A stretch of DNA of 64,000 nucleotides from Caulobacter sp. UNC358MFTsu5.1 (GTDB lineage: Bacteria; Pseudomonadota; Alphaproteobacteria; Caulobacterales; Caulobacteraceae). The DNA is taken from NCBI RefSeq assembly GCF_000712075.1, contig NZ_JONW01000008.1, positions 310,001 through 374,000 on the forward strand. Direction: 5' to 3'. Made by a program: the position numbers and the translations under genes. A model generated the notes under the pieces. It did not search any database and was not told where the DNA came from. It saw only the letters and a program-made list of their open reading frames with translations. Every line of letters begins with the position of its first letter. Positions within the stretch are counted from its first letter, which is position 1. Below, piece by piece: positions 43,833-48,621 of this stretch.

Positions 43833-43962
43833 GGCCCGCTCCGGCGCCTGACGGAACCTGTACCGCCGCCGCGCCTTCTATTGGCCAGGGACATCCCAAC
43901 AAGGATTGGCGGCCGTAATCGGGGGCCGAGCGTCGATCCGTTCGTCGGAACGGAGAGCAACC

Positions 43963-45000
43963 ATGACTTCCAAGACCACTGTGTGGCTGATGGCCTCGGC
44001 CGTCGCCCTGAGCGCGGCCGCGCCTGTACTGGCCCAGTCGGCCGACGCGGCCTATCGCCAACGCCTGGAGACTTACGGCGACCAGCGCGCCGTCTACGAC
44101 GCCCAGAGCGCCGACTATCGGGAGCAGCAGCGCGACTACGACCGCGACCGCTCCAAGTACCTTAGCGACAAGGCCGACTACGACCGCCGCTACGGCGCCG
44201 GCGCCTACGACCGTCGTTATCCGGAATACGCCACGCGCTTCGACAGCCCCAGCTACAACAGCAGCTCGGACTATTATCGCGAGCAGACCGCGTTCGAGCA
44301 CGATCGCCAGGTCTATGAGGACACCCGCCGCGACTACGACCGTCGCAACGGCTACGGCGCCTATGACCGGCGCTATCCCGACCAGGCCCGGCGCTTCAGC
44401 GTCAGCGGCCAGGCCTACACCACCAGCAACAGCGACTATCTGAGCCAGCGCGCCCAGTACGACCGCGACCGGGCCGACTACGAGCGGGCCCGCGCCGACT
44501 ACGACCGCCGCTACGGCTCGGGCGCCTATGACCGCCGCTATCCCGACTACGCCACGCGCTACGGCGCGCCGTACGCGGGAAGCTATGGCGACGACGTGTC
44601 CTACAACGCCCCCTGCCGGAGCGACGCCAAGAAGAACGCCACCGCCGGCGGCGTGATCGGGGCCCTGGTCGGCGCCGTGGCCGGCTCGAACCTGGCCGCC
44701 CGCAACGCCAAACCGGAAGGCACGGTGCTGGGCGCCCTGGTCGGGGCCGGCGTCGGCGCCAGCATCGGCAACGCCTCCAGCAAGGGCCGCTGCGACGCCA
44801 ACGGCCAGTACTGGACCTATGACGACACCGTCGCCTATCGCGAAAGCAGCCGCTATCGCGCCAGCTCCAGCAGCGTCTACAGCGACTACAGCCGCCGCTG
44901 CCGCCTGGCCCCGGCCGACACCGACTACAACGGCCGTGTCGAGACCCGCTATGTCCGCGTCTGCCCCGACAGCGCCGGCCGCTATCGCGTCCAGGGCTAA
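43963..45000 (+). CDS. Exported protein with three YDRRY...YDRRYP repeats and a glycine zipper
   Basis: 345 residues from ATG 43963 (GGAGAG upstream). The signal peptide ends AAPVLAQS. Three copies of a motif YDRRYGxGAYDRRYPxYATR start near residues 73, 125 and 180 (periods 52 and 55 residues), rich in Tyr, Arg and Asp and separated by YREQ/YLSQ segments. A glycine-zipper stretch follows about 225-275 (GGVIGALVGAVAGSNLAARN...GTVLGALVGAGVGASIG). It resembles the zipper-containing envelope proteins at 37850 and 45138. It is likely surface- or envelope-associated with a possible structural role; function unknown. Confidence 0.85.
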   Translation: MTSKTTVWLMASAVALSAAAPVLAQSADAAYRQRLETYGDQRAVYDAQSADYREQQRDYDRDRSKYLSDKADYDRRYGAGAYDRRYPEYATRFDSPSYNSSSDYYREQTAFEHDRQVYEDTRRDYDRRNGYGAYDRRYPDQARRFSVSGQAYTTSNSDYLSQRAQYDRDRADYERARADYDRRYGSGAYDRRYPDYATRYGAPYAGSYGDDVSYNAPCRSDAKKNATAGGVIGALVGAVAGSNLAARNAKPEGTVLGALVGAGVGASIGNASSKGRCDANGQYWTYDDTVAYRESSRYRASSSSVYSDYSRRCRLAPADTDYNGRVETRYVRVCPDSAGRYRVQG

Positions 45001-45137
45001 AGTCTGAACGGGGATGAACGGAGGCGTCGGAGCCGCTTCATCCCCGGTTCAGGTCGGAAAGCCGACACTGATCGAACCCAATACGAGCTTGGGCGTTCAT
45101 TGCGCTCAAGGATCACAAACCAAGAACGGAGCTCGCC

Positions 45138-45449
45138 ATGCGCGCCCAACTCAAGACCCTCGCCGTCGTCGTCGCCCTCGGCTTCACGGCGTCCACCGTC
45201 GCGGTCACCGCGGCCGAAGCCCAGACCCGCCACAAGGTCTGGGTCTGCAAGAGCACCAAGAGCGCCCGTAACAAGGGCACGGTGATCGGCGCCCTGTCGG
45301 GCGGCACGCTCGGCGCGGTCGTCGCGGGCCACGGCAACAAGACCGAAGGCGCCCTGCTGGGCGGCGCGGTCGGCGCGGTCGCCGGCAACCAGATCGCCAA
45401 GAAGAACTCGAAGAACAAGAACTGCCACTACGAGTACCGCTACTACTAG
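45138..45449 (+). CDS. Glycine-zipper 2TM domain protein
   Basis: 103 residues, GGAG before ATG 45138. Signal peptide (MRAQLKTLAVVVALGFTASTVAVTA), a short segment with WVCKSTKSARNKG, then a glycine zipper GTVIGALSGGTLGAVVAGHGNKTEGALLGGAVGAVAGNQIAKK and a C-terminal Cys-Tyr-rich tail. It follows the YDRRY protein by 137 bases on the same strand and shares the zipper layout. Envelope protein of unknown role. The conserved cysteine pair (VCK, NCHY) could be disulfide-bonded in the periplasm. Confidence 0.9.
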   Translation: MRAQLKTLAVVVALGFTASTVAVTAAEAQTRHKVWVCKSTKSARNKGTVIGALSGGTLGAVVAGHGNKTEGALLGGAVGAVAGNQIAKKNSKNKNCHYEYRYY

Positions 45450-45605: not shown

Positions 45606-47039
45606 TCAGCCCGTCGCACGCAGCAGGACCGCCTCGTCGAGGGCCTCGCGCAGGGCCTGCAGGCGGGATCGGCTGACGGGCAGCGGCGGGCCCTCGCGCA
45701 TGTGAAGGCGGCCGCCGCCGTTCTGCCGTTCGAGCCGCTGGACCTGGGCCAGATTGGCGATCACCGACCGATGAACCCGTAGGAAGCTCGGCGGCAGCTG
45801 GACCTCCAGCTGGTCGAGACGCGCGGCGTGCAGCAGGTCGCGTCCGCCGACCAGTCGCAGCTCGGCGTAGTCGTCGGCCCCCACCACCGCCAGGATCTCG
45901 GCGACCGGCACCAGCTCGACCCCGCGCGCGGAGGCCACGGTCAGCCGGTCGGGACGGCTGGCGGCTCGGGTCAGGGCGGCCTCGCGCCCACGATCGTCGC
46001 GGCCCAGCCGAACGACCTCGGCCATCAGCAACGGCACGACCAGTCCGGCGGCGAGCAGGAAGTAGGACAGGTCCACCAGCCACTCGGGAAACCCGACGGC
46101 CAGGACCAGGAACAGCGCCAGATAGGCCAGGGCCGGCCGCGCCCCGGGCAGGCGCTTGCGGACCCCGACCGCGGCGGCGACCCCGGCCAAGATCACGCCG
46201 ATCAGCAAAGCCAGTCCGGTCTTGAGGTCGAAGCCGGGCGCCAGGGCGGTGAGGCCGACGGCGACCGCGCCCAGGACGGTCATCCGCCGACGCGCCCCAG
46301 GCAGAAAGCGGCCTGCGGCGTAGGCCACCAGCATGATCGAGAAGGCGCCTGACAGCGCCCAGATCGCGCTCATCCGCCAGGCGTGCAGGGGATAGGCGTA
46401 GGAGACCAGCGCCCGAAGGCTCTCCACGACGGCTTGCAGGGCCGCGACCGCCGCCATCGCGGCCAGGACCAGACTCGACCCCGTGCGACGCAGGGCATGG
46501 ATCACGCCGAAGCCGAACGCCGCGGCCACCAGCGCGCCGGCCGCGGCGAAGGTCACCGCCAGCAGCGGAATGTGGGCCGAATAGGGATAGGGCCCGACCG
46601 TCGCCGACATGATCGGGCGATCGAAACGCAGGCCGCCGCGGAAGGACGACATGTGCATCACGACCACGTTCGCCCCCGGCCGCCAGGCGGTCTCGGCGAT
46701 CGGCATGGCGATCTGGTAGCGCCCCGGGACCTCGGCGCGGGCGTCGGCGGCGGGACGGCCGTTGGCGCCGAGCCTTCGGCCGTTCAGCCAGACCTCGGAC
46801 GAGGCGACGCCCGCGATGTAGAACGCCTGGGGACGCGTATCCGTCGGCGCGGGCAGGGCTGCGCGGAGCCAGATCTCGCGACCTTGGGGATCGATCGCGC
46901 CGTCCAGCGGACGGCAGTCGGTCAGGACCGGACCGTCAGCGCCCGGAGCGCCACGACAGGCCTGCCACGGCAGATCGTTGGCCCTGGCCAGGGTCGCGAA
47001 ACCGGCCAGGAGGCCGGCGAGGAGAAGGGTTCGCCACAT
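45606..47039 (-). CDS. Membrane-embedded LytTR-type transcriptional regulator
   Basis: 477 residues. A signal sequence leads to a periplasmic beta domain (about 20-160) reminiscent of the galactose-binding-like extracellular part of 7TMR receptors. About seven transmembrane helices follow (about 165-355). The C-terminal LytTR DNA-binding domain is about 370-470 (VAEILAVVGADDYAELRLVGGRDLLHA, LPPSFLRVHRSVIANLAQVQRLERQNGG). So one protein could sense an extracytoplasmic cue and bind DNA directly from the membrane. It is divergent from an exported alpha/beta hydrolase gene with LytTR-type direct repeats between. The signal is unknown. Confidence 0.88.
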   Translation of the reverse strand: MWRTLLLAGLLAGFATLARANDLPWQACRGAPGADGPVLTDCRPLDGAIDPQGREIWLRAALPAPTDTRPQAFYIAGVASSEVWLNGRRLGANGRPAADARAEVPGRYQIAMPIAETAWRPGANVVVMHMSSFRGGLRFDRPIMSATVGPYPYSAHIPLLAVTFAAAGALVAAAFGFGVIHALRRTGSSLVLAAMAAVAALQAVVESLRALVSYAYPLHAWRMSAIWALSGAFSIMLVAYAAGRFLPGARRRMTVLGAVAVGLTALAPGFDLKTGLALLIGVILAGVAAAVGVRKRLPGARPALAYLALFLVLAVGFPEWLVDLSYFLLAAGLVVPLLMAEVVRLGRDDRGREAALTRAASRPDRLTVASARGVELVPVAEILAVVGADDYAELRLVGGRDLLHAARLDQLEVQLPPSFLRVHRSVIANLAQVQRLERQNGGGRLHMREGPPLPVSRSRLQALREALDEAVLLRATG

Positions 47040-47079
47040 GGCGTCAGTCTAGGGCGCCGCTCGCCGAGATGCGTGGCCA

Positions 47080-47112
47080 TTCACCGACCGGGACGCGCCG
47101 TTGACCGAACCG
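47080..47112. promoter_or_regulatory. Candidate LytTR-binding direct repeats
   Basis: TTCACCGACCG (from 47080) and TTGACCGAACCG (from 47101) are direct repeats with a centre spacing of exactly 21 bases, the two-turn spacing usual for LytTR sites. They lie 40-72 bases upstream of the hydrolase start and in the divergent gap. Confidence 0.65.
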
Positions 47113-47151
47113 CCCCGGACAAATCGGCGCCGTCCCGGCTCTGTCGGCGGC

Positions 47152-48621
47152 ATGAACAGCACATCCCTTCACCGCCGCGCCCTGCTCGCCTCGGGCTTCG
47201 CCACAGGTCTGGCCGCCGGCCTCGCCCTTCCGACGCTCGCCTCGGCCCAGCCCGCTTCCAGCCAGGCCCAGCCGGGACCGCTCCGCTTCAAGAGCCGCGG
47301 CGGCCAGGAGCTCGATGCCGAGCGGGGCTTCTTCGAGGTCCCGGAGGACCGTCGCGATCCCCGCTCGCGCCGCATCCGCCTGAGCTATGTCCGCTTCCGG
47401 TCGACGGCGGCCAGGCCCGGCCCGCCGATCGTCTATCTGGCCGGCGGCCCCGGCGGCACGGCGACCGGCGCGGCGGCCGGACCGCGCTTTCCGATCTTCA
47501 TGGCCCTGCGCGAGGTGGCCGACGTGATCGCCTTCGACCAACGGGGCACGGGGCTGTCGAACGCCATCCCGGCGCGGCCGGCCTCGACGCGGCCGCCGCC
47601 GGTGTTCACGGAGGCCGGGCTGACCGCCTGGTTCCGCGCCGAGTTCCAGGAGGCCTGGCTAGACTGGACCAAGGCCGGCGTGGCCATGACCGGCTACAAC
47701 ACCGCCCAGAACGCCGACGACATCGACGACCTGCGCCATCACCTGGGCGTGGAGAAGGTCGATCTCTGGGGCATCAGCTACGGCTCGCACCTGGCCCTCA
47801 GCGCGCTCAAGCGGCACGGCGACCGGATCAACCGCGTGGCCCTGGCCAGCCTGGAGGGCCAGGACCAGACGGTGAAGCGGCCAGCGGCGATCGACCGCTT
47901 CCTGCGCCAGGTGGACGCCCTGCTGGACGCCGACCCGGCGGTCCGCGCCGCGGTCCCCGACCTGCCCGCGCTGATGCGCCGCGTCCACGCGAGGCTGGAG
48001 GCCCAGCCGGCCGTGACGAAGGTCACGCTGAAGGGCGCGCCGGGCGAGATCGCGATGGGCGGCTTCGGCGTCCAGATGCTGGCGGGCGGACTGATCGCCA
48101 ATCCCAACACCCTGGCCCTCCTACCGAGCCTGTACCTGGCCCTCGACGCCGGACGGACCGATGTGCTGGCGCCGTTCCTGGGCGACGTGGCCGACCTGCT
48201 GAGCGTGACCGGCATGCCCGAGGCCACGGACCTGGCGTCGGGGATTTCGCCGGGCCGGCTGGCCCTGGTCCGGCGCGAGGCGAAGGCCGCCGTGCTGGGC
48301 GAGGCGCTGAACTTCCCGATGCCGCAGCTGCTGGGCGCGGTTCCGGGAGCCGATCTGGGCGAAGGCTTCCGGGCGTCGCTGCGCATCGACCACCCCGCCC
48401 TGCTGGTCGCCGGCTCGCTGGACGGCCGCACGCCGCTGGCCGAACAGGACGTGGTGGCGGCCCAGTTCACGCATAAGTCCCGGGTGATCGTCGAGAACGC
48501 CGGCCACAACGTCTTCGAGGCCCATCCCGACGTGCAGGGCCTGCTGGTGCGGTTCTTCCGCGGCGAGGCCGTGGCCGACACCCGGCTGAGCCTGCCGCCA
48601 CCGAAGTTCCGCCTGGCGTAG
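47152..48621 (+). CDS. Exported alpha/beta-fold hydrolase (TAP/proline iminopeptidase-like)
   Basis: 489 residues from ATG 47152. The N-terminus MNSTSLHRRALLASGFATGLAAGLALPTLASAQ has a twin arginine and fits a Tat or Sec signal with ASA cleavage. The alpha/beta hydrolase shows PPIVYLAGGPGGTATG (oxyanion region) and the nucleophile elbow GISYGSH; the C-terminal TAP-like segment contains HPALLVAGSLDGRTPL and NAGHNVFEAHP with the terminal His. It is predicted to cleave N-terminal or short peptide or ester substrates in the periplasm. It is probably the target of the divergent LytTR regulator. Confidence 0.92.
   Translation: MNSTSLHRRALLASGFATGLAAGLALPTLASAQPASSQAQPGPLRFKSRGGQELDAERGFFEVPEDRRDPRSRRIRLSYVRFRSTAARPGPPIVYLAGGPGGTATGAAAGPRFPIFMALREVADVIAFDQRGTGLSNAIPARPASTRPPPVFTEAGLTAWFRAEFQEAWLDWTKAGVAMTGYNTAQNADDIDDLRHHLGVEKVDLWGISYGSHLALSALKRHGDRINRVALASLEGQDQTVKRPAAIDRFLRQVDALLDADPAVRAAVPDLPALMRRVHARLEAQPAVTKVTLKGAPGEIAMGGFGVQMLAGGLIANPNTLALLPSLYLALDAGRTDVLAPFLGDVADLLSVTGMPEATDLASGISPGRLALVRREAKAAVLGEALNFPMPQLLGAVPGADLGEGFRASLRIDHPALLVAGSLDGRTPLAEQDVVAAQFTHKSRVIVENAGHNVFEAHPDVQGLLVRFFRGEAVADTRLSLPPPKFRLA

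Follow-up and report, generated by a model that had tools for sequence, protein, structure and literature searches.

A putative cassette of a membrane LytTR regulator, a divergent hydrolase and three direct repeats in Caulobacter

How a membrane-held transcription factor senses the outside and reaches its promoter is a question for all transmembrane regulators, and one locus of Caulobacter sp. UNC358MFTsu5.1 raises it in compact form. We studied, in a stretch of 64,000 nucleotides of contig NZ_JONW01000008.1 (the window), a gene for a membrane LytTR regulator and the divergent gene for an apparently exported alpha/beta hydrolase, with direct repeats in the gap between them. The architecture of the regulator, the divergent pairing, three conserved repeats (R1, R2 and R3) and a second copy of the putative operator in trans were seen in the sequence. 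We propose, with a probability of about 0.7, that the two genes form a sensor-effector cassette in which the regulator would bind R1-R3 and directly control the hydrolase, most likely by activating it. The likelihoods that we attach to this and to the competing explanations overlap and do not add up to one.

Conservation of the repeats and of the gene pair

An earlier note on this DNA had described two repeats in the gap, TTCACCGACC at 47080 and TTGACCGAAC at 47101, as LytTR sites. The two copies are indeed exactly 21 bp apart, and their type and spacing were borne out by the LRS and CoxC precedents (see below), but a third copy upstream, R1, had been missed and the full repeat unit is longer, about GCC[AG]TT[CG][AG]CCGA. 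The three direct repeats are spaced 20 and 21 bp (Table 1), a layout that in sequence resembles the CoxC-type operator, whose three direct repeats stand 18-21 bp from one another. Two further features described below, a second copy of the putative operator in some genomes and the mobility of the pair, were likewise absent from that first account.

The locus was compared with 119 other genomes, 72 from the genus and 47 from other families of the order. A regulator homologue was found at 65-73% identity in 25 of the 72 and at 33-39%, over most of its length, in 10 of the 47; the closest relatives were Caulobacter records. Two overlapping sets of loci were used, 29 other loci from one homologue search and the best 80 of 168 regulator relatives from named genomes. 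The hydrolase was divergent from the regulator in 29/29 loci of the first set and in 75/80 of the second, which supports it as the conserved partner of the regulator; the earlier note had proposed it as the target. Pairwise identities of regulator and hydrolase were correlated (r 0.963 in 73 loci, 0.869 in 40 close loci). The five loci lacking a divergent hydrolase were L050, with no hydrolase within 4 kb, L099, at a contig end, and L081, L082 and L084, which form one clade (support 100/100) and face a DUF3108 protein instead (in L081 the gene is cut by the contig end, as judged by eye). L082 and L084 share their contigs with L079 and L080. The DUF3108 protein (69% identity between L082 and L084) is faced there, as in L081, by a further regulator copy, with related repeats.

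The earlier note had named as a refutation that the repeats would not be conserved at related loci; the comparison was made and did not refute its reading. In the 26 genus loci the repeat columns had a mean entropy of 0.31 bits, compared with 0.95 bits for the spacers and 1.14 bits for the 30 bp that follow; one base reached 90% in 27/36 repeat columns, 4/17 spacer columns and 2/30 downstream columns. The triple in 20/21-bp register was clear in 25 of these 26 loci, the first unit being degenerate in L033. A position weight matrix (PWM) was trained on the same 26 loci, window included, and its scores in close loci are partly circular because many belong to training genomes. With this restriction, 43 of 849,758 positions (both strands of 49 named loci) scored at least 30 for the 20/21 triple, which equals the number of loci with the operator in that register; two more scored 15-30. 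When the best PWM score per locus was set against 40 shuffles, allowing triple spacings of 19-23, the best triple beat all shuffles in 76/80 loci (not in L050, L080, L093 and L103). Outside the PWM training stood 31 distant loci (regulator identity 31-37%), whose distances are uncertain because their start codons were picked by script. There the best pair beat all 40 shuffles in 28/31 (not in L093, L095 and L103), and in 28 of the 30 with a hydrolase it was spaced exactly 21 bp when 20, 21 and 22 were allowed. From these comparative data we regard the repeats as a putative operator.

Short repeats arise readily in G+C-rich intergenic DNA, and the locus might be an ordinary divergent pair whose repeats are due to chance or are parts of promoters. 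This is hardly credible, being contradicted by the conservation of the repeats relative to the spacers, by their register, by the distant loci and by the trans copies described below.

Some loci depart from this conservation. L050 (3880-4003), from a metagenome-assembled genome of a Sphingomonas clade, is devoid of the hydrolase, R2 and R3 and has kept R1. Its value as a natural experiment on R1 is weakened, since retention may be passive: similarity to its sisters ends just after R1. In L079, L080 and L087 the repeats are altered in their first half, and L079, the only one of L079 and L080 in the alignment, has Gly where 52/53 rows have Arg457; the two changes together could reflect a specificity switch. 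With the trans copy and the other partner gene, such cases of hydrolase loss and altered repeats provide natural variants for study.

The genome of the window (5.4 Mb in 13 contigs) had two matches to a strict pair pattern, both at the operator (reversed control, 1), and three to a looser pattern, two of them at the operator (reversed control, 7). Across 73 genus genomes the strict pattern matched the operator in 23 of the 26 that bear the regulator, those of G001, G039 and G068 escaping it through base changes, and gave 17 matches off the operator against 10 for the reversed control. Neither scan, of the own genome or of the 73, revealed a broad regulon. These counts bear on the possibility that another LytTR protein of the genome binds the repeats. 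Seven others are encoded, six with predicted transmembrane segments, and two of their genes have related repeats 20 bp apart upstream. The strict pattern nevertheless sits at the operator in regulator-bearing genomes, as opposed to 12 scattered matches in 10 of the 47 genus genomes that lack the regulator (33 of these 47 show other LytTR-domain matches), which makes a foreign binder very improbable. One of the other LytTR genes (L124), with four predicted transmembrane segments, carries upstream the repeats GAGCGGCGCC/GAACGGCGCC, 20 bp apart.

Three of the 17 off-operator matches (L201, L202 and L203) and L204, from the looser scan of the own genome, were fetched. The match in L203 fell inside a likely coding frame and L204 had no good triple. 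Both L201 and L202 presented a complete triple (score 43.0) upstream of a serine hydrolase of the beta-lactamase family (PF00144) with a signal-like N-terminus, as judged by eye, and behind the triple stood apparent remnants of the opening codons of the usual hydrolase. Searching with the L201 protein yielded 20 loci. A full triple (31.8-43.0) preceded the PF00144 gene in 5/5 close orthologues (G040, G051, G001, G031 and G068) and in 0/15 weaker relatives (40-46%), one of which, L222, is covered for no more than 178 bp upstream. The discovery matches, those in G040 and G051, are 64% alike, and G001, G031 and G068 are 95-98% identical to G040, so these are two lineages and not five independent cases. 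All five genomes carry the regulator. The second triple was probably acquired by promoter capture. Since R1 is kept here away from any adjacent regulator gene, it should matter for the hydrolase direction.

Promoters and the direction of control

A TANNNT motif occurred within 16 bp of the regulator ATG in 30/43 close and 16/31 distant loci, against 0/43 and 0-2/31 in five control windows, and its position near the ATG places R1 inside the regulator promoter. On the other side, the end of R3 lies 41-44 bp from the hydrolase ATG in 39/41 close loci (43 bp in the window). No clear Shine-Dalgarno sequence was seen before the hydrolase ATG in close loci, and a leaderless hydrolase mRNA is therefore plausible.

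In what we infer of membrane location, binding, sign of control, autoregulation, signal and substrate, the regulator would sit in the inner membrane, with a carbohydrate-binding-like periplasmic beta domain on a seven-helix receptor bundle whose helix 7 would lead on towards the LytTR domain in the cytoplasm. A signal from the periplasm or the membrane would alter the bundle, and the LytTR domains, probably oligomeric, would bind the three direct repeats, which are about two helical turns apart, and so directly control the hydrolase, most likely as an activator. R3 would lie just upstream of the hydrolase -35 if the message is leaderless, and R1 in the stretch that separates the regulator's expected -10 and -35, where binding should also repress that gene. 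Activation is favoured because the repeats are oriented as in LytTR-activated promoters and because of the distance from R3 to the ATG. We thus favour activation of the hydrolase combined with repression of the regulator.

The main rival differs from this in sign only: the regulator would be a CoxC-like repressor that blocks one or both promoters until a ligand releases it. CoxC, a membrane LytTR protein, does repress, acting on three repeats that are spaced in the same way (PMC11347149). R1 falls inside the presumed promoter of the regulator, and in many loci R3 contains TTGACC, a -35-like hexamer. Several loci have TTGGCC, TTCACC or TTCGCC in R3 instead, however, and, for a leaderless mRNA, the R3-ATG distance suits a site upstream of the -35 better than a site that overlaps the -35; we consider repression unlikely, although it is the likeliest of the alternatives.

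Alternatively, the repeats might serve mainly autoregulation of the regulator, the divergent hydrolase being only loosely controlled. LRS operons are autoregulated through such repeats (PMC6193735), and in 15/30 distant loci the best pair starts 36-38 bp from the regulator ATG while the distance to the hydrolase varies, so that the regulator's own control may be as important as that of the hydrolase. Against this stand the 41-44 bp to the hydrolase start in close loci and the triple, R1 included, before the second hydrolase of five genomes with no regulator alongside. These trans copies weaken the case for R1 as a pure autoregulation site, and an operator mainly for autoregulation appears improbable.

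Activation of the hydrolase and repression of the regulator, the arrangement that we prefer, has several further points to face besides that distance pattern of the distant loci. No convincing -10 is seen for the hydrolase; the scores of L093 and L103 fall among those of their shuffles; L079, L080 and L087 retain the gene pair with changed repeats; and activation is argued from geometry only, while CoxC, the nearest characterised case, represses.

The two proteins and the mobility of the pair

The regulator was predicted to be, as the earlier note had held, one membrane LytTR protein that combines a beta domain in the periplasm with seven helices, the sensor and DNA-binding parts being encoded in one uninterrupted open reading frame (ORF). 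LytTR (PF04397) was the sole Pfam family (E 3.3e-18, 66.1 bits against a cut-off of 22.6) and was matched in 53/53 aligned relatives (E <= 1), and the domain superposed on the AgrA-DNA structure 3bs1_A (Z 14.6, root-mean-square deviation (rmsd) 2.5, 101 aligned). An AlphaFold model from the 53-sequence alignment (mean pLDDT 88.7) presented a signal helix, a beta-sandwich, seven long helices (residues 157-184, 187-211, 217-245, 247-266, 270-294, 300-316 and 325-360) and a LytTR fold; a simple hydropathy scan detected six of the seven. By prediction, then, the regulator is of the transmembrane one-component type.

In the model the periplasmic domain resembles galactose-binding-like beta-sandwiches. 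Its Cys28 and Cys42 are invariant in 53/53 relatives. The Pfam galactose-binding domain of beta-galactosidase touched 13/53 relatives (best E 0.00094) and gave no match in the window regulator itself; Foldseek listed beta-glucuronidase and beta-galactosidase chains, matches that presumably concern this domain. For the 7TMR-DISM family (PF07695) the window regulator had no match above the cut-off and the whole genome none at E <= 0.001, and 3/53 relatives matched at E <= 1 (best 0.26). Aligned with 7TMR-DISM proteins by hhalign, the beta domain plus helices reached 96.5% (E 8.9e-10, 250 columns), a value that dropped to 18.8% with the helices alone, and the HlyIII control gave 0.4%. The sensor is likely to be a DISM-like receptor. 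An MHYT sensor was ruled out for the window regulator, which had no match at E <= 1, and MHYT was absent from the 25 families (of 37) listed for the relatives. The membrane part matched G-protein-coupled receptors (GPCRs) and rhodopsins with Z up to 15.6, only somewhat above the value of about 13 that helical bundles can reach through arrangement alone; Wntless and TMEM87A were further Foldseek matches, at TM-scores of at most 0.35. A class-wide profile search found the regulator family in 2/337 genomes, own genome counted, so it is sparse in the class overall.

The hydrolase matched Abhydrolase_1 (71.4 bits) and the TAP-like C-terminal model (21.5 against a cut-off of 21). In fold it came nearest to Hip1 and TnmK (Z 26.7-29.1, 411-421 aligned, rmsd 3.8-4.4); it shares with Hip1, TnmK and TAP-like hydrolases a nearly full-length fold and the Ser-Asp-His triad, at only 16-19% identity. 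The triad was invariant in 39/39 hydrolase sequences. The listed ORF begins with a TTG at 47101, which falls within the last repeat; for this reason, and because it agrees with the starts of the relatives, the ATG at 47152 is the most likely start. An RR pair occurred within the first 45 residues in 21/39, so twin-arginine (Tat) export is possible but not general. The peptide-sensing loop suggested by the earlier note is kept as unsupported: nothing was found in its favour, the beta domain is galactose-binding-like, and the fold and family neighbours of the hydrolase span peptidases, esterases and other hydrolases.

Table 1 Features of the regulator-hydrolase locus, in window coordinates
Feature	Position	Strand	Basis or remark
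Membrane LytTR regulator, 477 aa	45606..47039	-	ORF and Pfam LytTR
LytTR DNA-binding domain, residues 374-467	45639..45920	-	Pfam and structure match
Predicted seven-helix membrane bundle, residues 157-360	45960..46571	-	AlphaFold helices, VIA-align matches, remote 7TMR-DISM profile match
Predicted periplasmic beta-sandwich, residues 26-150	46590..46964	-	AlphaFold, family comparison
-10-like TAGACT of the regulator	47046..47051	-	6 bp before ATG; presumed leaderless start
Repeat R1 GCCGCTCGCCGA	47056..47067	+	Motif comparison across loci
Repeat R2 GCCATTCACCGA	47076..47087	+	Motif comparison across loci
Repeat R3 GCCGTTGACCGA	47097..47108	+	Motif comparison across loci
Possible weak hydrolase -10, TCTGTC	47140..47145	+	Suggested by T-rich positions with weak conservation among 41 close loci
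Alpha/beta hydrolase (TAP-like/Hip1-like fold), apparently exported, 489 aa, Ser209/Asp424/His452	47152..48621	+	Pfam, fold, start comparison

None of six flank genes of the window was found in the 80 relative loci, in contrast to the pair itself. The window and 49 named loci of at least 45% identity fell into 34 flank contexts, possibly over-split (ORFs of at least 110 aa, E 1e-15, more than 40% identity, flanks of up to 4 kb). In contrast, a HigX-like LytTR gene (see below) had ctrA, identified by a peptide match, within 1.5 kb in 28/30 loci. Seven sequences in the tree of the regulator, those of six Sphingomonas plus L050, grouped together (support 99/98) inside a mostly Caulobacter set of 24 (100/99), a position consistent with an apparent transfer of the pair into Sphingomonas. 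We see an even chance that these regulators are a family of single-polypeptide receptor-transcription factors, whose GPCR-like/7TMR-DISM-like bundle of seven helices, topped by a carbohydrate-binding-like periplasmic domain, brings about promoter binding in one step; that the family moves together with its hydrolase and three-site operator as a mobile cassette; and that a second secreted serine hydrolase has captured the operator-promoter, so that a small regulon of exported hydrolases has arisen. Elsewhere in the window, positions 43906-45449 encode two adjoining glycine-zipper proteins.

Comparison with known systems

Receptors of the 7TMR-DISM type (PF07695) have an N-terminal extracytoplasmic domain, seven helices and a C-terminal output domain. 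The window regulator is like them in layout and unlike them in that its match stays below the Pfam cut-off and its output is a DNA-binding domain. The closest precedents are CoxC and HigX. CoxC of Afipia carboxidovorans is described in PMC11347149 as an MHYT-LytTR one-component membrane regulator with seven transmembrane segments, which senses CO and copper via MHYT and represses the cox cluster through three direct repeats 18-21 bp apart (repeat TTNNNGCN), all of them needed. CoxC and the window regulator share the one-component membrane LytTR design, seven transmembrane segments (predicted in the window regulator) and three repeats two helical turns apart; they differ in the MHYT sensor, the cox target, the repeat sequence and, probably, the repressing action. 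In LytTR regulatory systems (LRS) such as HdrRM (PMC6193735) the 9-bp ACC-like direct repeats are mostly 12 bp apart and lie, in Streptococcus mutans, 4-11 bp upstream of the -35. LytTR control is tied there too to a membrane protein and to direct repeats, but regulator and membrane inhibitor are separate proteins from two genes and not one polypeptide.

HigX of Caulobacter crescentus (PMC13384398) is a membrane-embedded LytTR protein upstream of ctrA, with a neighbouring hydrolase gene in every one of 68 aligned genomes except five; it is described there as having four transmembrane helices and no periplasmic domain, with an inverted repeat as its chromatin immunoprecipitation motif. It is thus, like the window regulator, a membrane LytTR protein beside a hydrolase gene, and is unlike it in having four helices rather than seven plus a periplasmic domain, and ctrA as a neighbour. 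This genome has a separate HigX-like gene next to ctrA (the latter identified by eye through its N-terminal sequence), and BLASTP gave no similarity between the hydrolase adjoining that gene and the window hydrolase. The gap between HigX-like genes and their divergent hydrolases (L123:4957-5727 and L129-L158) had TTCGC units with a 20-bp period in 16/30 loci (7-of-8 test) and with no other period between 15 and 26, and the core GAACCC[AG]TTCGCC in 26/30; the main text of PMC13384398 does not use the term 'direct repeat'.

Membrane LytTR regulators are already known from HigX (PMC13384398), CoxC (PMC11347149) and a survey (PMC10269533). Searches of the open-licence PubMed Central (PMC) literature turned up neither such a cassette nor a LytTR regulator that carries a periplasmic domain on a DISM-like bundle. 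The 2026 HigX paper (PMC13384398) states, for the alphaproteobacterial LytTR proteins of the original survey, that they are without apparent periplasmic domains. The family of the window regulator is an exception to that statement. For the question of how such factors sense a signal and reach their promoters it is useful in that its periplasmic domain is defined, it has a single dedicated partner enzyme, and its putative operator is compact and conserved.

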